Shown here: positions 1-9,641 of the stretch, piece by piece
Layout of the letters: each line of letters starts with the position of its first letter
How positions within the stretch are numbered: the stretch's first letter is position 1
DNA from: Burkholderia sp.
Lineage (GTDB): Bacteria; Pseudomonadota; Gammaproteobacteria; Burkholderiales; Burkholderiaceae
Reading direction: 5' to 3'
NCBI GenBank assembly: GCA_028292565.1
Contig: JAQGMD010000234.1
Span: 1 to 9,653 of the forward strand
Length of the DNA: 9,653 nt
Program-made: the position numbers and the translations under genes
The notes under the pieces: generated by a model
The model's input: the letters and a program-made list of their open reading frames with translations, nothing else
Told to the model about the DNA's origin: nothing
The model's database searches: none

Positions 1-604
1 GACCCGCCAGTATCTGGTCTACGTCGACGAGATCCGCAGCCGCAACCTGGAACTGGCGGCCGAATACCTGCTGATGGCGGCGATGCTCATCGAAATCAAA
101 TCGCGCATGCTGTTGCCGGTCAGGAAGGCCGACAGCGGCGATGAAGCGGAGGACCCGCGCGCCGAACTGGTGCGGCGGCTGCTGGAATACGAACAGATGA
201 AGATGGCGGCGCTGCAGATCGACACCCTGCCGCAACTGGGGCGCGATTATGTGCGCGCGCAGATACACATCGAACAGAACGTGGTCACCCGCTGGCCGGA
301 TGTGAACATGTCCGAGCTGCAAGCCGCATGGGCCGACGTGATCAAGCGCGCCAAACTCACTGCGCACCATACCATCAGCCGCGAAGAACTTTCAGTGCGC
401 GAACACATGACTGGCATCCTGCGCCGCCTGCAATCGGCCAGGTTTGTCGAATTTGCCGACCTGTTCGAGCCGTCGCGCGGCGTGCCGGTGGTTGTGGTCA
501 ATTTCATCGCCCTGCTCGAGCTGGCCAAGGAAACCTTGATCGAGATCACGCAAGCAGAGGCCTTTGCGCCAATCTATGTGCGGTTGGCATATTCTCCGGC
601 CTAA
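1..604 (+). CDS. scpA: Segregation and condensation protein A (ScpA), 3' part
   Basis: ScpA is the kleisin subunit of the SMC-ScpA-ScpB condensin, which compacts and segregates the chromosome. The frame is open from base 2, so the gene begins left of the window; 200 residues are visible and roughly 60-90 N-terminal residues are missing, judged from the usual family length. Family marks seen are the N-lobe stretch LAAEYLLMAAMLIEIKSRML, and a C-terminal winged-helix region with LSVREHM, a hydrophobic VVVNFIALLELAKE helix and the ending FAPIYVRL. In kleisins the C-terminal winged helix contacts the SMC head; that role is family knowledge. The ATG at base 74 is internal and is not the start. The stop TAA is 31 bases before panC, so the two genes are probably co-transcribed. 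Confidence 0.93.
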   Translation, partial: TRQYLVYVDEIRSRNLELAAEYLLMAAMLIEIKSRMLLPVRKADSGDEAEDPRAELVRRLLEYEQMKMAALQIDTLPQLGRDYVRAQIHIEQNVVTRWPDVNMSELQAAWADVIKRAKLTAHHTISREELSVREHMTGILRRLQSARFVEFADLFEPSRGVPVVVVNFIALLELAKETLIEITQAEAFAPIYVRLAYSPA

Positions 605-608
605 TTAG

Positions 609-1475
<867 letters not shown>

Positions 1476-1485
1476 TCGGGCAGCG

Positions 1486-1505
1486 GTTGGAATGCCAATT
1501 CCAAC
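1486..1505. repeat. REP-like hairpin, copy 1
   Basis: A perfect 8-bp stem GTTGGAAT/ATTCCAAC around a GCCA loop lies 10 bases after the panC stop. The sequence on its right (CCAACATTCAC) is repeated in inverted orientation at the left of copy 2. It shares its stem and the GCCA loop with copy 3. There is no following T-run, so it is not a standard Rho-independent terminator, although it could slow polymerase or protect the 3' end of the panC mRNA. Confidence 0.6.
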
Positions 1506-1548
1506 ATTCACACTCGAATCAGAGCCGGTGGTTGTGCGGAGGGTGAAT

Positions 1549-1567
1549 GTTGGGATTTCGTCCCAAC
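1549..1567 (-). repeat. REP-like hairpin, copy 2, with flanking GTAG
   Basis: A perfect 7-bp stem GTTGGGA/TCCCAAC surrounds a TTTCG loop. Read on the - strand, the stem is preceded directly by GTAG (1568-1571 on the + strand is CTAC), the arrangement expected of REP sequences recognised by RAYT (TnpA-REP) single-strand transposases. From memory, variants of GTAGGTTGGG...CCCAAC are widely dispersed in proteobacterial and cyanobacterial genomes. The function here is unproven. Confidence 0.6.
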
Positions 1568-1604
1568 CTACGAATACCCGGACTCCTGACCTCTGTCCCT
1601 GAAA

Positions 1605-1636
1605 TAGTGGTTGGGATGCCAATCCCCACACTACGT
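1605..1636 (-). repeat. REP-like hairpin, copy 3, abutting the dinB 3' end
   Basis: The core 1610-1629 pairs GTTGGGAT with ATCCCCAC around a GCCA loop, with one mismatch in eight. Outer bases TAGTG (1605-1609) and CACTA (1629-1633) can pair instead of the inner mismatch region. On the - strand it begins with GTAG (1633-1636), as in copy 2. Its last base touches the stop codon of the dinB-family gene, so the hairpin lies immediately 3' of that reading frame. It is the same orientation and loop as copy 1 on the + strand. Confidence 0.5.
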
Positions 1637-2145
1637 CAATCCGGCATCAACATCAAATCCGTATCACCCGCATCTATGCCACGTTGTGACAGCAGCGTCG
1701 CGACCTGCGCGCGATGATTGGTCTGGTGATTGAAGAAGTGGGTCACCAGCAGCCACGCCGGTTTGCTGCGCGTCGATTTGCTCAGCCCGCTGTACCAGCT
1801 GAAATCAGCGCGTAGCCATTCCCCGTCGATCGCCGCAGCCCATGCGTGAATATCCGCATCCATTACCAGGCGTTCCGCCTTTAGCGCATTCCAGTCGGCA
1901 TAGATGTCGTTGCCCAGGGTCGCTTTCGGATAGTCCTTCTCGAGCGGCGTGCCTTTGGTAAACCGTCCAGTCCACATGTAATCGGCCCAGATCAGGTGGT
2001 TCAACGTCGAGTGGATCGATTTGAAAAACGCGCCGCAATCCACCTTGCGTTCTTCATCGGTCAGTCGATCGCACGCCGCATAGATTTTTTCATTCATCCA
2101 GCGGTTGTAACGTGCCATCGTTAGTGCGTACTGCGGTGTGATCAT
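1636..2145 (-). CDS. DinB-family putative metal-dependent protein
   Basis: This 169-residue protein has the four-helix-bundle DinB/YfiT fold by its motifs: ARYNRWMNEKIY near the N-terminus, NHLIWADYMW (49-58) and HFFNHQTNHRAQV (136-148). The likely metal triad is His50, His140 and His144. Family members include thiol transferases and many proteins of unknown role; the name comes from a DNA-damage-inducible Bacillus gene and does not imply a repair role. No substrate can be assigned here. The start at 2145 fits the usual family N-terminus, but no Shine-Dalgarno sequence is visible before it, so weak or coupled translation is possible. It lies 61 bases downstream of parA on the same strand and converges on panC across the hairpin cluster. 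Confidence 0.85.
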   Translation of the reverse strand: MITPQYALTMARYNRWMNEKIYAACDRLTDEERKVDCGAFFKSIHSTLNHLIWADYMWTGRFTKGTPLEKDYPKATLGNDIYADWNALKAERLVMDADIHAWAAAIDGEWLRADFSWYSGLSKSTRSKPAWLLVTHFFNHQTNHRAQVATLLSQRGIDAGDTDLMLMPD

Positions 2146-2164
2146 TGCAAGGGCGGCAAATAGT

Positions 2165-2189
2165 CGTTAAGGGCACGTATACATTAACG
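2165..2189. other. Dyad symmetry in the parA-dinB gap
   Basis: The arms CGTTAA (2165-2170) and TTAACG (2184-2189) are perfect inverted repeats separated by 13 bases that contain GTATAC. This is the only clear structure in the 61-base gap. It could be an operator for the dinB-family gene or chance; the arms are AT-rich and would make a weak hairpin, and no T-run follows. Confidence 0.25.
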
Positions 2190-2206
2190 CAAATGCGGCA
2201 GTACCG

Positions 2207-2818
2207 TCATTGGTCCACCCAGTTCGCAAGCGCCTGCCATTGCTCCAGGTCCTTTTCCACGCGCGAAGGCGCGACGTCCCATATGGTCAGGCCGTGGGCG
2301 GCGAGCTGTACATAGTTTTGCGTATCGCGCAGGTAGCCGAGCACAGGCAAACCGAGGCTGTTGACATAGTGCGCAAGTTGGTCGGCGGAACGTGTGCGGA
2401 CATTGACGCGCATGCCGAGTACGGCAACGCCACGCTTGCCCTTGCGGACCAGCAGTTTTTCCAGGAAGGATTGTGTCGCCAGGATATCGAACATCGATGC
2501 CTGCAGGGGAACGATCACCTTGTGGGCAATTTTCATCACTTCGTCGAAGCGCGCACCGTCAAGACCCGCGGGTGTATCGAGCACGATATGGGTGGTGCCC
2601 TTCGGCGGCCTGGCGATATGGCCGTTAGTCATGTCCCATGCCGCGATCGTCGGCAACGCGGCGGACCGCAACTGGAGCCAGCTACGGGAGGATTGCTGGA
2701 GATCGGCGTCGCCGAGCATCACCTTGTGGCCCTGCTTCGAAAAATAACCTGCGAGGTTGGTGGCAAGCGTGCTCTTGCCGACGCCGCCTTTCGGGTTCGC
2801 GATGACGATCACTGGCAT
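2207..2818 (-). CDS. Orphan ParA-family ATPase
   Basis: This is a ParA/MinD-type P-loop ATPase of 203 residues. The deviant Walker A is PKGGVGKST (9-17) with the signature lysine at position 10 or 11 region and the catalytic-loop lysine at 15. Walker A' follows as GDADLQQSS (36-44) and Walker B as IVLDTPAG (78-85). The C-terminal part contains LRDTQNYVQLAAHGL and SRVEKDLEQW. ATPases of this group position cargo such as DNA, chemoreceptor clusters or other complexes by ATP-dependent surface gradients; the cargo here is unknown. No parB, parS array or replication gene is adjacent, so it is not a visible plasmid partition locus. The start at 2818 is chosen because GGGGAG lies 6 bases upstream and the protein begins directly at the P-loop strand. 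The frame opens to 2950, but the extra 44 residues look non-native. It follows cobQ by 140 bases. Confidence 0.88.
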   Translation of the reverse strand: MPVIVIANPKGGVGKSTLATNLAGYFSKQGHKVMLGDADLQQSSRSWLQLRSAALPTIAAWDMTNGHIARPPKGTTHIVLDTPAGLDGARFDEVMKIAHKVIVPLQASMFDILATQSFLEKLLVRKGKRGVAVLGMRVNVRTRSADQLAHYVNSLGLPVLGYLRDTQNYVQLAAHGLTIWDVAPSRVEKDLEQWQALANWVDQ

Positions 2819-2824
2819 TGCTTT

Positions 2825-2830
2825 CTCCCC
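2825..2830 (-). promoter_or_regulatory. Ribosome-binding site fixing the parA start
   Basis: On the - strand GGGGAG sits 6 bases before the ATG at 2816-2818. It is a strong match to the Shine-Dalgarno consensus and decides against the longer upstream start at 2950, which has none. Confidence 0.8.
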
Positions 2831-2840
2831 AGATTGGAAT

Positions 2841-2856
2841 ACCGGTTGCGTCCGGT
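2841..2856. other. Small GC hairpin in the parA leader
   Basis: ACCGG and CCGGT form a perfect 5-bp stem with a 6-base loop (TTGCGT), just upstream of the parA ribosome-binding site. No T-run follows on either strand, so it is not a convincing terminator for cobQ. It might affect leader RNA stability, or it may be chance. Confidence 0.2.
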
Positions 2857-2893
2857 TTAATCGCACGCCCTTGTGTGACGGGCATTTTTCAGA

Positions 2894-2922
2894 AGAATAG
2901 CATGATGCTTGGGCGCAAGAAT
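2894..2922 (-). promoter_or_regulatory. Candidate extended -10 promoter for parA
   Basis: The - strand carries TGCTATTCT (2894-2902), an extended -10-like element, in an AT-rich gap between cobQ and parA. The -35 match at normal spacing (TTCTTG, 2916-2921) is poor. The wider stretch 2921-2966 is strikingly AT-rich compared with its surroundings. The gap and the strong parA ribosome-binding site suggest that parA has its own promoter, but the exact site is only a guess. Confidence 0.2.
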
Positions 2923-2958
2923 TGAATAAGGTTTTTTGAATTATTATCACAAAATCAA

Positions 2959-4425
2959 TTAATTTGATCTCCCCTCTTCCGCAGACTGTCGTAGCAGTGC
3001 GTCCAGAAGCGGTGCCGACGCATCAGCAATACGATCCAGGCTCTGCTCCCGCAGTTGCCCAAGATCGACCGGGACATCGCTATCGAGCCCGGCCCAGCGC
3101 AGGAGCGCCGAGAGCGCCTGCGGGGTATCGAACAAGCCGTGCAGGTACGTGCCCATCACCAGATCGTCCGCCGAACGCGCGCCTTCAGCGCGCCCCGCGA
3201 TGTAAAACGCGGGCATGTCCCGTGCCGGGCCATCGGAAACCCCCATATGGATTTCATAGCCGTTGACCGGAACGCCTTCCGCGAATGCGCAAGCTCCACG
3301 GACCTGCTCGAGCCGCTTGTCACCAGTCATTTCGGTATCGATGTCGAGCAGCCCCAGCGCCTGCGACACGCCCGCCGGGCCTTCCACTCCCTGCGGATCC
3401 GCAACCGTACGTCCGAGCATCTGATAGCCGCCGCAGATGCCGATCACTTTCCCGCCATACCGCACGTGCCTGTTCAATGCCTGTGGCCAGCCCTGCACCG
3501 TCAGCCATGCCAGGTCGCCGCGGGTGTTTTTGCTTCCGGGAAGAATAACCAGATCTGCAGCAGGGATAGGTTGTCCCGGACCGATGAAGCGCAGGTCGAT
3601 GCCGGGATGCGCGCGCAATGCATCGAAGTCCGTGTGGTTGCTAATGCGCGGCACCGCCGGAACGATCACCCTGAACTCGCCACGCCCGCTTTGCGCCGGC
3701 TGAACCGCGTCTTCGGCATCGAGGTAGAGGCCATGCAAATACGGCAGCACCGCGAGGACAGGTTTGCCTGTTTGCTGCTCCAGCCATTCGAGGCCCGGTT
3801 CGAGCAGGCTGATGTCGCCGCGAAAACGGTTGATCACAAAACCGACGATGCGATTGCGCTCGCTCTCAGACAGGCAAGACAGCGTGCCCACAATATGCGC
3901 GAACACCCCGCCGCGATCGATGTCGGCCACCAGGATCACCGGACAATCGACCGCTTCGGCAAATCCCATGTTGGCGATATCGCGATCGCGCAAGTTGATC
4001 TCGGCGGGACTGCCGGCGCCTTCGACGATGACCGCTTCATAACTGTCGGTCAGCCTGCGATAAGAAGCCAGTACAGCCTCCATCGCCACCGTCTTGTATT
4101 GGTGGTAGTCGCGCGCATTCATGTCAGCGCGCACCTTGCCGTGGATGATGACTTGGGCGCCAGTGTCGCTCGAAGGTTTAAGCAGCACCGGGTTCATGTC
4201 GGTGTGAGGCTCGAGTCCCGCCGCCTGCGCCTGCAATGCCTGCGCTCGACCGATCTCGCCGCCGTCAGTCGTGACTGCGCTGTTGAGCGCCATGTTCTGC
4301 GGCTTGAACGGCACGACCTTTACGCCTTGGCGAGCGAGCAGCCGGCACAATGCGGCGACCACGGTACTCTTGCCGGCATCCGAGGTCGTGCCCTGCACCA
4401 TCAGCGTGTGGAAAGGAAGCTTCAT
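2959..4425 (-). CDS. cobQ: Cobyric acid synthase (adenosylcobyric acid synthase)
   Basis: CobQ amidates four peripheral carboxylates of adenosylcobyrinic acid a,c-diamide, using glutamine and ATP, to give adenosylcobyric acid. The 488-residue length is normal. The N-terminal synthetase domain opens with the P-loop [10 protein letters not shown] (12-21) and KPQNMALNS (41-49), with [12 protein letters not shown] (134-145) and [12 protein letters not shown] (166-177) further on. The C-terminal class I amidotransferase-like domain has VILPGSKNT (293-301), the nucleophile Cys331 in [10 protein letters not shown], and His429 in GTYLHGLFD. It is the last gene of the corrinoid cluster. Its ATG overlaps the btuF stop by four bases (ATGA) and there is no strong ribosome-binding site, so translation is probably coupled to btuF. 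Its presence means the cell either makes cobyrinic acid diamide or takes up incompletely amidated corrinoids. Confidence 0.97.
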
Positions 4426-5306
4426 CGCTTGTCACCACGACGGCTGCGCGCCAGCTCCAGCTTTTCGCATACCGCGGCCGCGCCCTGCAACAGGCGTGGA
4501 CCGGCGCGGTTAAGCAGGTCCGCATCGATGGCGAACAGGTTGCCGCGTTGTACGGCGAGCATGCCTGTGTATCGGTGCCAGACTTCGAGACCGGCTTTGG
4601 TTGCATCGCGCCGGTCGCCGGTGATCATCGCTTCCGGATTTTCCAGCAGGACCGCTTCGGTGCTGACCGTCGGCGCAGTCACCGGCAAAGAGGCGAAGAT
4701 GTTTTCTCCGCCGCACAGCCGCAATACATCGCTGATGATATGTTTTCCATTGAGTGTGTAAACGGGCTGGCCCCACACCTGGTAGAAAACGCGGACCAGC
4801 GGCCGCTGTTGATATTGTGCTTTCAAGCGAGCCAGTTGCAGCCGCTGCTCCGCAGCGGTTTGCTCAGCCTGCTTTTCGGTTCCCATCAGCTTCCCGAGGC
4901 GGACGATATTTTCGGGAATGTCATCGAGCTTATGCGGCTCGCTATAGAAGAGCGGGATGCCGAGCTTGCGCAGGTGTTCCAGTTGCCGCTCCGAATTGCC
5001 GTGCAACCAGACCACCAGCAGGTCGGGCTTGAGAGCAATGATGCGTTCGATATCGATCTGCCGGTGGTCGCCTACGCGCGGGATGTCCTTTGCCGCCGGA
5101 GGGAAATCACTATAGCCGACAGTGCCGACGATGCGGTCGCCGCCACCGGCGGCGAAAACCATCTCGGTTACATGCGGTGCGAGCGTCACGACGCGTTGCG
5201 CCGGACGCTGCAAAACGATGGTGTTGCCGGTGGCATCATGTACTGTGATGGCGGCAGATGCATGGAGGGTAACCAGCCATGCGGCTAGCAGGATAAAACG
5301 TTTCAC
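4422..5306 (-). CDS. btuF: Cobalamin/corrinoid periplasmic binding protein
   Basis: This is the substrate-binding protein of the B12 ABC importer: it captures corrinoids in the periplasm and delivers them to BtuCD. It has 294 residues. A signal peptide is clear (MKRF, hydrophobic [12 protein letters not shown] before residue 19, no lipobox Cys), so the protein is soluble and exported. The helical-backbone binding-protein fold shows in [20 protein letters not shown] (38-57), GYSDFPP (64-70), [20 protein letters not shown] (77-96) and [10 protein letters not shown] (195-204). The start is set at GTG 5304-5306, because AAAGGAA lies just upstream and the signal peptide begins there; the frame opens 16 codons earlier, inside cobD. 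The GTG overlaps the cobD stop as GTGA, and its own stop overlaps cobQ. The position between cobD and cobQ ties uptake to late assembly. Confidence 0.92.
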
Positions 5307-6301
5307 TGTGTTCCTTTCGATGCGGACCATTCGGCCAATGCCTGCTGCAGGCAATGCCAGCCCGCTTCATCGGGCGGCAAGCCAAGTCGTATGCCTGTTG
5401 CCCCCTTTGTAAACAGGCGCACCCATATACCGCGTTGCGCCATGTGCTGCCAGAATTCTTTAGCGCGCGGCTCAGGCCACCATTGATACAGCGCGCTGCC
5501 GGCCGAACTTATGCCATGAGCGGCAAGCAGCGATTGTAAGCGCGCCCCGCTCTCAAGCAATCGGCATCGCGTCGCTTCCTGCCATGCGTAATCCGAGAGT
5601 GCCGCACGGCCGATCTCTTGCGCCGGACCGCTCACGGCCCATGGCCCAATCGCTTCGGCCAAATCATGTAGCAGCGCTTCATCGGCCGCCACGAATCCGA
5701 GGCGCGCACCGGCCAGGCCGAAGAATTTTCCGACCGAGCGCAGCACAATCAGTCCCGGACGCCCGGTCCAGCTAGCCACGCTCATCTGCGGCGTGGTGTC
5801 ACTGAACGCTTCATCCACCACCAACCAGCCGCCGCGCGCGCCAAGACGTTCGGCCCAGTCCAGCAGCACCCCGGGATCCACCGTCTCTCCGGTGGGATTA
5901 TTCGGATTGCAAATCACCATCACGTCGCAATCGTCAACCGCAGATGCCAGCGCGTCGTAGGCGACCTCGCGCATTGCATGACCAACCTGTGCCCAGCGAT
6001 GCGCGTGTTCGGCATATGCCGGCGCGGCGATGACCACCCGCGATGGCGCGCGCAGGCGCGGCAATGCCTGTATCGCTGCCTGCGTGCCCGCGACCGGCAG
6101 CAATCGTGGCGCTCCGTAATACGTTTGCGCGGCGGTCACCAGCGCCTCACTGGTTTCCGGAAGACGATGCCACACATCGCCGGCCAACGCCGGCACCGGA
6201 TACGGCTGCGGATTGATACCGGTCGACAGGTCGATCCATTCGTCACGCGGCCGATCGAATTGGACGATCGCATCCTGCAGATTGCCGCCATGCTCAAGCA
6301 T
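5303..6301 (-). CDS. cobD: L-threonine-O-3-phosphate decarboxylase
   Basis: This PLP-dependent fold-type I enzyme (CobD in Salmonella, CobC in Pseudomonas denitrificans naming) converts L-threonine phosphate to (R)-1-amino-2-propanol phosphate, which CbiB attaches to adenosylcobyric acid. It has 332 residues. It begins EHGGN, typical of the family, followed by WIDLSTGINP (22-31). The PLP-site motifs are CNPNNPTGE (131-139), VVDEAF (161-166), the Schiff-base Lys192 in RSVGKFFGL and the phosphate-binding Arg200 in GARLGF. A conserved VRLFTKGATGIRLGL segment lies near the C-terminus. The ATG at 6299-6301 is preceded by AAAGGG with 6-base spacing. It overlaps the cbiB stop by 8 bases, and its own stop overlaps the btuF start. 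It could be confused with histidinol-phosphate aminotransferase, but context and N-terminus favour CobD. Confidence 0.93.
   Translation of the reverse strand: MLEHGGNLQDAIVQFDRPRDEWIDLSTGINPQPYPVPALAGDVWHRLPETSEALVTAAQTYYGAPRLLPVAGTQAAIQALPRLRAPSRVVIAAPAYAEHAHRWAQVGHAMREVAYDALASAVDDCDVMVICNPNNPTGETVDPGVLLDWAERLGARGGWLVVDEAFSDTTPQMSVASWTGRPGLIVLRSVGKFFGLAGARLGFVAADEALLHDLAEAIGPWAVSGPAQEIGRAALSDYAWQEATRCRLLESGARLQSLLAAHGISSAGSALYQWWPEPRAKEFWQHMAQRGIWVRLFTKGATGIRLGLPPDEAGWHCLQQALAEWSASKGTQ
5311..5318 (-). promoter_or_regulatory. Ribosome-binding site fixing the btuF GTG start
   Basis: GAAAGGAA on the - strand ends 4 bases before the GTG at 5304-5306, with AGG spaced 6 bases from it. It lies within the last codons of cobD and supports the GTG start over the upstream ATG at 5352-5354. 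Confidence 0.75.
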
Positions 6302-7220
6302 GCATTACCCTTTCAAGAACAACCGCCACGCTCAATACGCCCACCCACAACGCCGTCGTGCCCGCTACCAGCCGCCATGCTCTTCCGATATCGGATGCTG
6401 ACGCGCCTCGCCCTATCCCGAGCGGCGGCCGGTTCTCTATTACGCCGTCATAGGTAGCTGCGCCGCCAAGCGCAAGACCTAAAGCGCCGGCGCCGGCCGA
6501 CATGACCGGGCCCGCATTCGGACTGGACCACGCCGGCGCCTGACTGCGCCAGCATCGCCACGCTACCCGGGTATTCCCGAGCAATGCATACGACGCTGCG
6601 GTCAGGCGGGCGGGGATCCAGTTCAGTGCATCATCGATACGCGCTGCGGCGCAGCCAAAAGCAAGAAAGCGCGGCGTCCGGTATCCCCACATGGCATCGA
6701 GTGTATTGGCCAGACGGAACAACACGGCGCCGGGCGCGCCTGCAACAATGAACCAGAACAGCGTGCCGAACACGGCATCGTTGCCATTCTCGAGCAAGGA
6801 CTCGACGCTGGCTTTGGCCAGGTTGGATTCATCGGCGTGCGTGGTATCGCGGCTAACGATGCGGGCAGTGAGCCGGCGCGCCTCGGGCAGGTCATTGTCT
6901 GCCAACGCGCGTTCAATCGGAAGGGTATGGTCGCGCAAGCTGCGCAGCCCGATACAGAAATATAGCAGCACCGCATGCAGGAACAGACTCGCCGCAGAAT
7001 AATATGAGAGCAATACCAAAGGAATCACAGCCAGCAGCCATGCCCCTGCACCCTTCGCGAATCGGTATTCACCGCGATTCATCCTGCGCTCCAACGCATC
7101 GGCCAGGCGACCGAATCCGACCAGTGGATGCCAACGACGCACCTCGCCCAGCATCAGGTCGAGTGCAATGCCCGCAATGGCCAGCAGCGCAATTGTCGTC
7201 AGGTCCAGTCCCGCCAGCAT
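6294..7220 (-). CDS. cbiB: Adenosylcobinamide-phosphate synthase, membrane protein
   Basis: CbiB condenses adenosylcobyric acid with aminopropanol phosphate to form adenosylcobinamide phosphate at the inner membrane (it is called CobD in P. denitrificans naming). The 308-residue product has several hydrophobic segments (about 8-24, 58-92, 150-172, 235-253, 285-302). Family motifs are ALDLMLGEVRRWHPLVGFGR (19-38), the conserved loop KASVESLLENGNDAVFGTLF (136-155), RLANTLDAMWGY (169-180) and SPNAGPVMSAGAGAL (233-247). The start is placed at ATG 7218-7220, 2 bases after the cobU stop, because AAAGG is spaced 6 bases away and family proteins begin at this hydrophobic helix; a longer frame to 7277 overlaps cobU and lacks such support. 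Its stop overlaps cobD. Confidence 0.93.
   Translation of the reverse strand: MLAGLDLTTIALLAIAGIALDLMLGEVRRWHPLVGFGRLADALERRMNRGEYRFAKGAGAWLLAVIPLVLLSYYSAASLFLHAVLLYFCIGLRSLRDHTLPIERALADNDLPEARRLTARIVSRDTTHADESNLAKASVESLLENGNDAVFGTLFWFIVAGAPGAVLFRLANTLDAMWGYRTPRFLAFGCAAARIDDALNWIPARLTAASYALLGNTRVAWRCWRSQAPAWSSPNAGPVMSAGAGALGLALGGAATYDGVIENRPPLGIGRGASASDIGRAWRLVAGTTALWVGVLSVAVVLERVMHA
6308..6313 (-). promoter_or_regulatory. Ribosome-binding site of cobD
   Basis: AAAGGG on the - strand lies inside the 3' end of cbiB, 6 bases before the cobD ATG. It supports the start that overlaps cbiB by 8 bases. Confidence 0.7.
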
Positions 7221-7222
7221 GC

Positions 7223-7774
7223 TCAGCCTTTCAGCGTCATCGGCAAGCCTGCAGCGACCCACACCGCACGTTCGCAACGGGCGGCCACTGCCTGATTCAG
7301 GCGGCCGGCTTCATCGACGAACCAGCGCGATATCGCTCCCTGGGGCACCACACCCATGCCAACTTCATTGGAGACAACGATCACATCTCCCGCCGCTTGC
7401 TCCAGCGCGAGCAGGAAACCCGTACGCTGTTCATCGAAGCATGCGGGCGGAATAATTTTTCCTACTTCCGGAAAAACCTTTTCTTCAGCGAACAGCAAAT
7501 TGGACAGCCAGACAGTCAGGCAATCGACCAGTATCAATCGCTGCGGCGAGCTCCATTGCGCGATGGCGGCGCCGAGCGCAAACGGTTGTTCGATCGTCTG
7601 CCACGACTGGCTGCGCTGTTGCCGATGCATGGCGATACGCGCCGTCATTTCCTCGTCGCCCGGCTGCGCGGTGGCGATGTAAATCACTTCCTTGCCGGAA
7701 GCCGCGGCAAGCGCCTCCGCATGCGCGCTCTTCCCGGAGCGCGCGCCACCCAGTATGAAGGTCCGCGTTACCAC
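7223..7774 (-). CDS. cobU: Adenosylcobinamide kinase / adenosylcobinamide-phosphate guanylyltransferase
   Basis: CobU (CobP in P. denitrificans) is a bifunctional cytoplasmic enzyme: it phosphorylates adenosylcobinamide and transfers GMP to the phosphate, giving AdoCbi-GDP for CobS. The 183 residues match the family. The P-loop is GGARSGKS (9-16). YIATAQPGDEEMTARI (32-47) precedes His50, which aligns with the guanylylated His46 of Salmonella CobU. LVDCLTVWLSNLL and VVSNEVGMGVVPQGAISRWF are the other conserved blocks. The start is GTG at 7772-7774, which overlaps the end of the cobO remnant by 7 bases; no ATG lies near. The upstream ribosome-binding site is weak, so translation is probably coupled to the small ORF before it. 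That may be why the remnant has been kept open. Confidence 0.95.
   Translation of the reverse strand: MVTRTFILGGARSGKSAHAEALAAASGKEVIYIATAQPGDEEMTARIAMHRQQRSQSWQTIEQPFALGAAIAQWSSPQRLILVDCLTVWLSNLLFAEEKVFPEVGKIIPPACFDEQRTGFLLALEQAAGDVIVVSNEVGMGVVPQGAISRWFVDEAGRLNQAVAARCERAVWVAAGLPMTLKG
7227..7231 (-). promoter_or_regulatory. Ribosome-binding site fixing the cbiB start
   Basis: AAAGG on the - strand forms part of the last codons of cobU and lies 6 bases before the ATG at 7218-7220. It supports the shorter cbiB start. Confidence 0.7.
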
Positions 7775-7860
7775 TCGACACCCGTCTTCGGGTCGACGAC
7801 TTCCTTCTTGCGCTGCATGCGGGCGTGATGCCGTTCGTTGATGCGTTCTTGTTCACTCAT
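7768..7860 (-). pseudogene. cobO: Internally deleted cobO (corrinoid adenosyltransferase) remnant, 30-codon ORF
   Basis: The 30-residue product starts MSEQERINERHHARMQRKK and ends DPKTGVEW. The first ~22 residues match my memory of the N-terminal helix of CobO/BtuR (E. coli BtuR begins MSDERYQQRQQRVKEKVD). The last residues resemble that family's C-terminal tail (E. coli ends AQIGIDY). A full protein is about 200 residues; the P-loop (GNGKGKS) and catalytic body are absent here. The ORF has a strong GGAGG site 9 bases upstream, overlaps the btuD stop by 8 bases and the cobU start by 7 bases, so it sits as an intact cobO would and is probably still translated. I infer an in-frame internal deletion. 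A real microprotein, or an assembly collapse, are alternatives. If genuine, adenosylation needs another enzyme, such as PduO-type ATR, elsewhere. Confidence 0.6.
7780..7793. other. Short perfect hairpin at the inferred cobO deletion junction
   Basis: ACCCG and CGGGT form a perfect 5-bp stem with a TCTT loop. It covers codons 23-27 of the remnant, exactly between the N-terminal-like and C-terminal-like parts. It also lies just before the cobU GTG, so it may affect initiation there. It could be part of the breakpoint or chance. Confidence 0.3.
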
Positions 7861-8632
7861 GTCGAGGATCCTCCACAGGTAGGTATATCGTGCGGTTGCC
7901 GTGCCGGACAATTTCAATCGGATGACCGAGGCAGCGGCTCAGGATCGGTGGACGCATTACTTCGTCGACCGGGCCCGCCTGCCATTGCCCGTCGCCCATC
8001 AACAGCAATGCGTGACTCGCGACGCCATGCGCGAGATTGAGATCGTGGCTGACCATCACCACCGACTTTCCTGACTGCCTGCACAAGCGCGCCAGCAATC
8101 CCATGACACTTACCTGGTGCGCCAGGTCGAGCGCGTTGGCGGGCTCGTCCAGCAGCAATAGCGGCGTGTCCTGGGCGAGCACGGCGGCAATGGCAACGCG
8201 CTGGCGCTCACCGCCGGACAAGGTCCGCACATCGCGCTCAGCCAGGTCACGTACATCCAGCGCCTGCAGCGCCGCATAGGCAGCCTGGTAGTCCGCATCG
8301 GATTCCCAGTAGCTTGCTTCCTGATACGGATGACGCGCGGTGAGCACCGTTTCGATCACGCGATAGCCGAACGCATCGCTGCGGCCCTGCGGAAGGAAAG
8401 CACGTTCGCGTGCCAGGTCGGTCAATCGCCAGTCTGGCAGCGGTCGACCACCCAACTGCACAGTGCCGCCGTCCGGATCGCGCAAGCCGGCGAGAGTTCG
8501 TAGCAACGTGCTCTTGCCCGCGCCGTTACGGCCGATCACGCACCAGCATTCGCCCGGGCCAACCTGCCAGTCCAGTCCCTTCACCAGCAGGCGATTGCCG
8601 ATGCGAAGATCGAGGTTCACCGTTCGCATCAT
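7853..8632 (-). CDS. btuD: Cobalamin ABC transporter ATP-binding protein
   Basis: This is the cytoplasmic ATPase that powers B12 import through BtuC. The 259 residues carry all ABC motifs: Walker A GRNGAGKST (34-42), Q-loop at Gln82 in FLPQ, signature LSGGERQR (138-145), Walker B LLLLDEP (158-164) and switch His196 in VSHDL. The general family also covers haem and iron-siderophore importers; the corrinoid genes around it decide the assignment. It follows the btuC stop by one base. AGGAGA lies at 8637-8642; the second ATG (8627-8629) has slightly better spacing (8 bases) than the first (5 bases), so either Met may be used. Its stop overlaps the start of the cobO remnant. Confidence 0.93.
   Translation of the reverse strand: MMRTVNLDLRIGNRLLVKGLDWQVGPGECWCVIGRNGAGKSTLLRTLAGLRDPDGGTVQLGGRPLPDWRLTDLARERAFLPQGRSDAFGYRVIETVLTARHPYQEASYWESDADYQAAYAALQALDVRDLAERDVRTLSGGERQRVAIAAVLAQDTPLLLLDEPANALDLAHQVSVMGLLARLCRQSGKSVVMVSHDLNLAHGVASHALLLMGDGQWQAGPVDEVMRPPILSRCLGHPIEIVRHGNRTIYLPVEDPRHE
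7870..7874 (-). promoter_or_regulatory. Ribosome-binding site of the cobO remnant
   Basis: GGAGG on the - strand lies in the last codons of btuD, 9 bases before the ATG at 7858-7860. It is part of a 10-base palindrome, GAGGATCCTC (7865-7874). It is one of the best such sites in the operon and indicates that the small ORF is translated. Confidence 0.6.
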
Positions 8633-8633
8633 G

Positions 8634-9641
8634 TCATCTCCTGCGTATCTGGTGCAGCTGCAGCAGGAATACCGGCACGCCGATGAGTGCGGTAATCACA
8701 CCGACCGGCAGCTGCTGCGGAGCGACGATGCTGCGCGCGAGCGTATCGGCCAGCACGAGGAATGTTCCGCCGACCAGCGTGGCTGCCGGCAGCAGCAGGC
8801 GATGTTCCGGGCCAAGTGCGAAGCGACACGCATGCGGGACGATCAGCCCCACAAAGCCGATACTGCCCGCATTGCTGACAGCAGTGGCGGTTAGCAATGC
8901 CGCGGAAACAAACAAACCTTGCCTGAGAGCGCCCACCCGGATGCCGAGGGTCGCCGCCGTTTCCGCATGCAATGCCACCACATTGATGGCGCGCGCGACG
9001 CGAATGGAAAAAGTCAGCGCGGCTGCCAATACCAGCCAGGGCAGCCAGCGCAACTGCGTGCCGGACAGGTCGCCAATGAGCCAGAACACCATGCCACGCA
9101 AGCGGTTGTCGGGCGCTACAGACAGTATCAGGGTCACCAGCGCGCCGCAGCCCGAAGCCACGATGACACCGGTGAGTAAAAGAAGAGGCGCATTGCCCTC
9201 GGCAATGCCATTGCGCAAATCGCGATGCGCCAGCAGGAACAGCAGCAAAGCCACCGAGATGGCACCGGCAAAGGCGGCGACATCGATTATCCAGGCGGCG
9301 GTGAAGAACAGCATGGCCGCGAGCGCGCCGACTGCGGCCCCGCTGGACACACCGAGCACGTAGGGATCGGCCAATGGGTTGCGCAACAATGCCTGCATCA
9401 TGACGCCCGCGAGGGCCAGCGTCGAGCCCGTAACGAACGCGGAGAGCACCCGTCCCAGCCTGAGCTGCAACAATGTGGCCGCGAGAGTCGATGGTTCTCC
9501 GCTGGCGATTTCGCGCAGTGCGGTAAACATGTCGGAGACCGGCAGTGCCACGGAACCGATGCCGCACGCGAGCAAGATGGTCACGAACGCAAGCACCAGC
9601 AGTCCGGTCAACACAGAAAAAGCCCTGCGGCGTTCGCGCAC
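8634..9641 (-). CDS. btuC: Cobalamin ABC transporter permease (FecCD family)
   Basis: BtuC is the inner-membrane channel of the B12 importer and works as a dimer with BtuD. The 335 visible residues contain many hydrophobic segments consistent with the family's ~10 helices. Motifs are LRLGRVLSAFVTGSTLALAG (60-79), MQALLRNPLADPYVLGVSSG (82-101), the ATPase-coupling region AETAATLGIRVGALRQG (226-242) and SIGFVGLIVPH (260-270). The start is uncertain: GTG at 9639-9641 gives a typical length, but no ribosome-binding site is visible in the 12 bases left, and the frame stays open to the window edge, so translation may begin further out. It is the first visible gene of the operon. A B12 riboswitch or btuB, if present, would lie outside the window. 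Specificity for corrinoids rests on context. Confidence 0.9.
   Translation of the reverse strand: MRERRRAFSVLTGLLVLAFVTILLACGIGSVALPVSDMFTALREIASGEPSTLAATLLQLRLGRVLSAFVTGSTLALAGVMMQALLRNPLADPYVLGVSSGAAVGALAAMLFFTAAWIIDVAAFAGAISVALLLFLLAHRDLRNGIAEGNAPLLLLTGVIVASGCGALVTLILSVAPDNRLRGMVFWLIGDLSGTQLRWLPWLVLAAALTFSIRVARAINVVALHAETAATLGIRVGALRQGLFVSAALLTATAVSNAGSIGFVGLIVPHACRFALGPEHRLLLPAATLVGGTFLVLADTLARSIVAPQQLPVGVITALIGVPVFLLQLHQIRRR

Follow-up and report, generated by a model that had tools for sequence, protein, structure and literature searches.

Within a corrinoid import and salvage operon we found, between btuD and cobU, a frame of only 30 codons. What is this frame, how did it arise, and does it still do anything for the genes around it? 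The window, by which we mean the whole analysed stretch of 9,653 nucleotides, carries the operon in the order btuC-btuD-stub-cobU-cbiB-cobD-btuF-cobQ (Table 1), the aminotransferase gene being one that we take to be cobD because of where it stands in the operon. The contig ends 12 bases past btuC. The left part of the window (74-2950) holds ordinary chromosomal genes, namely scpA, panC, a DinB-family gene and a ParA-like gene.

Table 1. Operon genes, subdivisions of the short frame and signals around it
Feature	Position	Strand	Remarks
btuC permease	8634..9641	-	PF01032
GGAGG Shine-Dalgarno-like site of mini-cobO	7870..7874	-	9 nt before ATG
btuD, ABC transporter ATPase	7853..8632	-	stop 7853-7855; 3' end shares 8 nt with the mini-cobO start (ATGAGTGA)
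mini-cobO (remnant of cobO)	7768..7860	-	30 codons and stop, ATG to TAA
cobO 5'-end part	7785..7860	-	76 nt, codons 1-25 and one base
cobO 3'-end part	7768..7784	-	17 nt: rest of the apparently hybrid Thr codon, GVEW, stop
cobU start/mini-cobO stop overlap GTGGTAA	7768..7774	-	also scar of the cobB loss
cobU	7223..7774	-	PF02283, E 6e-60; GTG 7772-7774 within cobO's final codons; overlap of 7 nt with mini-cobO
cbiB	6294..7277	-	PF03186
cobD-type aminotransferase	5303..6301	-	PF00155
btuF	4422..5354	-	PF01497
cobQ	2959..4425	-	PF07685, PF01656

Identity of the 30-codon frame

Translation of the minus strand from 7860 to 7768 gives MSEQERINERHHARMQRKKEVVDPKTGVEW, which forms the 3' part of a 49-aa open reading frame (ORF). 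The initial annotation had read this product as an in-frame relic of cobO at the btuD-cobU position, with a CobO-like N-terminus joined to a CobO-like C-terminal tail and some 170 residues between them missing, a reading that a profile comparison without any CobO similarity would have undone. The comparison is significant: residues 8-23 are recognised by Co_AT_N (PF12557), the family of CobO N-termini, with 24.8 bits (E 2.1e-5), above the cut-off of 21.4 bits. The catalytic core PF02572 finds no match in the 30 residues at E values up to 1, and no full CobO was detected elsewhere within the window by tblastn at 1e-6. The C-terminal end is as in relatives, since 11-16 of its last 17 bases are identical to those that end cobO in 32 relatives, the best being L013 (16/17), and a set of 200,000 random GC-rich tails of six codons contained none with the same pattern (any residue, then G, A, P or S, then V, E, then W, F or Y, then stop). 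The profile score over the cut-off and the random tails together rule out a chance similarity to CobO. Judged by its sequence, the frame is a remnant of cobO and a real gene relic, and on these points the annotation was borne out.

The breakpoint can be placed closely. With the end of btuD and the start of cobO as query, the best genome matches stop at query position 168-176, where 176 corresponds to position 7785 of the window, and the last 60 nt of the 5' part are identical at 33-54 of 60 positions in the 32 relatives. Between the two parts 519 nt, or 173 codons, are missing in frame with respect to 32 of 32 cobO genes of the same type, these being the genes of all loci among L001-L062 whose CobO reaches 60% identity to the L001 protein (20 loci at 49-54% were left out). 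A smaller count of the junction, on 12 hand-picked of 21 listed cobO genes, is part of these 32. A 519-nt in-frame deletion has thus taken the codons of the whole catalytic core and fused codon 25 to the last codons, and the Thr codon at the join looks like a hybrid of both sides of the deletion. A single deletion running from cobO codon 25 into cobB or cobU was also considered and is ruled out, as the final 17 nt correspond to how cobO ends in relatives and cobB lies beyond cobO in L001-L003.

Mini-cobO shares with the CobO/BtuR/CobA corrinoid adenosyltransferases (PF02572 with PF12557; structures 1g5r and 4hut) the N-terminal segment, the last residues and the place after btuD, but it is without the 173-codon core and its product therefore cannot be an adenosyltransferase. 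This serves as a warning that a Co_AT_N match by itself is no proof of an adenosyltransferase, and that short ORFs within operons may be deletion scars.

Loss of cobB and the junction with cobU

Relatives of the locus were found by a CobU scan of genome contigs, which gave 460, and the best 80 were kept with their flanks; the titles of L001-L062 name mostly genera that we take to be Oxalobacteraceae. In the nearest three, L001-L003, the order is btuC-btuD-cobO-cobB-cobU-cbiB-cobD-btuF, with an intact cobO orthologue at the place of the stub and, between cobO and cobU, a cobB gene that is absent from the window. A tree of five concatenated proteins took 32 of 63 sequences (62 loci and the window), namely all that had four or more of the five genes (L006, L017, L020 and L035 were excluded), and in it the window groups with L001-L003 with a support of 0.996. 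Because all three have btuD-cobO-cobB-cobU, two losses, of the cobO core and of all of cobB, are derived in the window's line. At the other end of the operon (4422-4425), btuF passes straight into cobQ, and in L001-L003 an extra stretch of weak btuF similarity lies between.

The loss of cobB has left its own trace. Past the mini-cobO stop, the sequence enters codon 2 of the relatives' cobU (GTG-GTA-ACG-CGG versus ATG-ACG-CGC), so that the ancestral cobU ATG was lost along with cobB. With cobB gone and the cobO stop abutting that codon, the first possible cobU start is the GTG in cobO's last codons: no start codon lies between it and the preceding stop of the cobU frame, and there is no further ATG, GTG or TTG between it and the P-loop codons. 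The move from ATG to GTG adds one residue and makes CobU 183 residues long here, against 182 in eight of the ten next database proteins.

According to the initial annotation, both outer ends of the stub keep the overlaps of the operon. The 8 bases shared with btuD, the 7 shared with cobU and the GGAGG site are all present, but the two overlaps differ in age. That with btuD is ancestral, because L001, L002 and L003 have it too by their coordinates, and 8 of 32 relatives carry the string ATGAGTGA close to where cobO starts (as a string match only). That with cobU is a new junction and was not kept, cobB having stood there in the ancestral order.

Other relatives arrange the same genes in other ways. 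In L012 and L020 cobO stands directly before cobU without cobB between, and the junctions differ from the window's. In L004, L005, L009 and L025 btuD runs straight into cobU, with no cobO or cobB between them, as in the window; in contrast to the window, they have a 4-nt overlap and no stub, and beyond btuC they carry a cobO-cobB pair of a second type. Their CobO proteins are 48-50% identical to that of L001, and L005 CobO is 88% identical to that of L025. Since L008, the tree neighbour of L005, has the other type of cobO-cobB pair between btuD and cobU, it seems that in L005 the pair was exchanged and btuD was joined cleanly to cobU. The window adds a base-resolved case in which an operon loses two adjacent enzyme functions, the cobO core and cobB, while the neighbours stay joined by overlaps.

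A second copy and the role of the stub

A protein-database search with the 49-aa ORF gave, within its length and word limits, one candidate and one match. This protein, P0001, comes from JGI, has 30 residues, is encoded on a 926-bp contig and belongs to a cluster of 3 sequences. It reads MSEQEGINERHHARMQRKKEVVDQKTVVEW and has the same length and junction as mini-cobO, with 27 of 30 residues identical in this protein comparison with one sister. Residues 7-23 are the same in both; compared by eye, P0001 agrees with L001 CobO at two of the differing residues (G6 and Q24) and the window at the third (27). The short form that the annotation had proposed to look for in sister strains is thus present on an independent contig, and that two diverged copies share this deletion points to a single event preceding their split.

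How widespread are such stubs? Among 392 family genomes, Co_AT_N was found in 212, with exactly one match each, and the CobO core in 271. At the Co_AT_N threshold none of these 212 genomes has a stub beside an intact cobO, an arrangement that would have spoken against the relic, and none of the 392 holds a convincing Co_AT_N-only relic; lengths of the frames around Co_AT_N were seen among the matches listed. Co_AT_N without a CobO core occurs in G101 only, and this 15-residue, 21.5-bit match inside a 364-codon frame was taken as chance and rejected as a CobO relic. The search reaches the CobO types that Co_AT_N recognises: 60 genomes have a CobO core without a Co_AT_N match, and stubs of such types, or too eroded ones, would escape it. 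Among plasmids, 174 records match btuD-cobU and none does so over 80% of it, and no paper on such a cobO stub was found, as judged by titles and the starts of abstracts.

What, then, may the stub do? We think it probable that this scar of the ancestral cobO now works as a passive translational bridge to cobU, which would be the simplest role for it. Ribosomes arriving from btuD and from the GGAGG site would translate the 30-codon stub, terminate at its TAA and then reinitiate at the overlapping cobU GTG, so that the stub would take over the part played by cobB in relatives; the peptide itself is most likely without activity. In favour of the bridge, the end of mini-cobO overlaps the start of cobU by 7 nt and mini-cobO has its own Shine-Dalgarno-like site, for which the calculated duplex with the anti-Shine-Dalgarno sequence is strong (-9.3 kcal/mol), while cobU has a GTG start and a weak site (-4.3). 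Moreover, 44 of 62 relatives have a cobU start that falls within the end of the preceding ORF, with ATGA as the overlap in 43 cases, and the stub continues this arrangement.

The same comparisons also provide arguments against the bridge. The cobU site is not unusually weak, being exceeded by 38 of 57 relatives and stronger than 19, with sites in L001-L003 that are about as weak (-4.1, -3.4 and -4.6), and 18 of the 62 relatives have no overlapping upstream ORF or are unscorable (gaps in 9, no long upstream ORF nearby in 4, no clear start in 5). The -7 spacing to cobU lies outside the range in which, by the passages on spacing in the review PMC12548453, coupling is most efficient (-4 to +3 nt); the same passages have coupling fall with more overlap, which makes 7 less favourable than 4. 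In favour of the bridge, they list the -8 spacing (NTGNNTGA, the form of the btuD/mini-cobO overlap) as an enriched one. With the coupled upstream ORFs as these parts of PMC12548453 describe them, the stub shares its own Shine-Dalgarno-like site, a stop over the next start and a weak site on the next gene; it differs in its origin from a deleted enzyme gene, in an overlap of 7 nt instead of the common 4, and in that coupling here is predicted.

If selection maintains such a bridge, an enzyme gene has been pared down to its ribosome-loading and ribosome-releasing parts, and the stub would be nature's equivalent of an engineered non-polar deletion scar. Scars of this kind, in frame, are reportedly those of the Keio collection. 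Like them, the stub keeps the start and the last codons in frame, encodes a short peptide and leaves the downstream gene translatable. It differs from them in being natural, in that the following gene was lost too, and in the moved cobU start. The locus offers a small testable system for the question of whether leftover ORFs persist because they hand ribosomes to the next gene.

That selection has in fact maintained the stub of 30 codons throughout a clade, as a functioning bridge for cobU, is a further step, and one that we consider less likely than not. The initial annotation had seen in the preserved frame and coupling a sign of selection. The comparison fits either view: one sister protein with changes at 3 of 30 residues is compatible with drift. 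Under pure drift, the stub would be a pseudogene too young to have decayed, and cobU would be translated independently from its own GTG. The two known copies are set apart by only three residues, a 93-nt frame under no selection would often still be intact, and one random deletion in three preserves the frame. The weak cobU site, the position of the cobU GTG inside the stub and the frequency of overlapping upstream ORFs in this operon weigh on the other side, and we consider drift alone the less likely account, though the most serious of the rivals.

The alternative that the annotation had raised, a retained microprotein, fares much worse. Here the N-terminal arm and tail of CobO would keep a binding role, e.g. 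with another corrinoid enzyme, and the unchanged residues 7-23, which fall within a conserved CobO segment, are what such a role might leave behind. However, the unchanged stretch is short, the catalytic core is absent, no partner is known and the family genomes yielded no convincing ORF with Co_AT_N only, so that we regard this as very improbable. Finally, a collapse of cobO and cobB out of the contig during assembly, conceivable as the window is apparently a stand-alone contig (the database cluster of its CobU, with 6 member sequences, lists one contig of 9653 bases), has a negligible probability and is largely ruled out by P0001, since the same stub on a different contig with three residue differences argues against assembly error and the deletion is exactly in frame against all the relatives compared.

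A riboswitch or a special RNA structure can be dismissed as well, as no Rfam family reached its threshold in the window and the RNA around mini-cobO shows no unusual structure (fold z -0.74), a point that also counts against the bridge. A five-pair hairpin (ACCCG-AAGA-CGGGT) lies at 7780-7793, immediately upstream of the cobU GTG. Its conservation is improbable, because codons 24 and 27, which it uses, encode other residues in the sister protein.

Adenosyltransferases in related genomes

With its CobO reduced to a stub, the strain was expected by the initial annotation to rely on a different adenosyltransferase or on imported adenosylated corrinoid. Relatives make the first of these plausible: a PduO-type enzyme is present in all 14 relative genomes examined, and the CobO core in 12 of the 14. 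CobB exceeds its curated cut-off of 261.4 bits in 10 of the 14; below it are a near full-length match in G004 (246.3 bits) and short weak matches in G011 and G012, with none in G014. In the genomes of L017 and L035 (G011 and G014, respectively) no CobO, convincing CobB or CbiC was found, and the PduO-type enzyme is the only one present; these two apparently salvage corrinoids with PduO only. CbiC, a corrin-ring enzyme, occurs in 4 of the 14 genomes, which are exactly those of L004, L005, L009 and L025 with the cobO-cobB pair across btuC. Adenosylation in the window's genome is thus probably carried out by a PduO-type enzyme or a second CobO encoded elsewhere, and this genome could resemble either L005, with its apparently exchanged pair, or L017 and L035, with PduO only.
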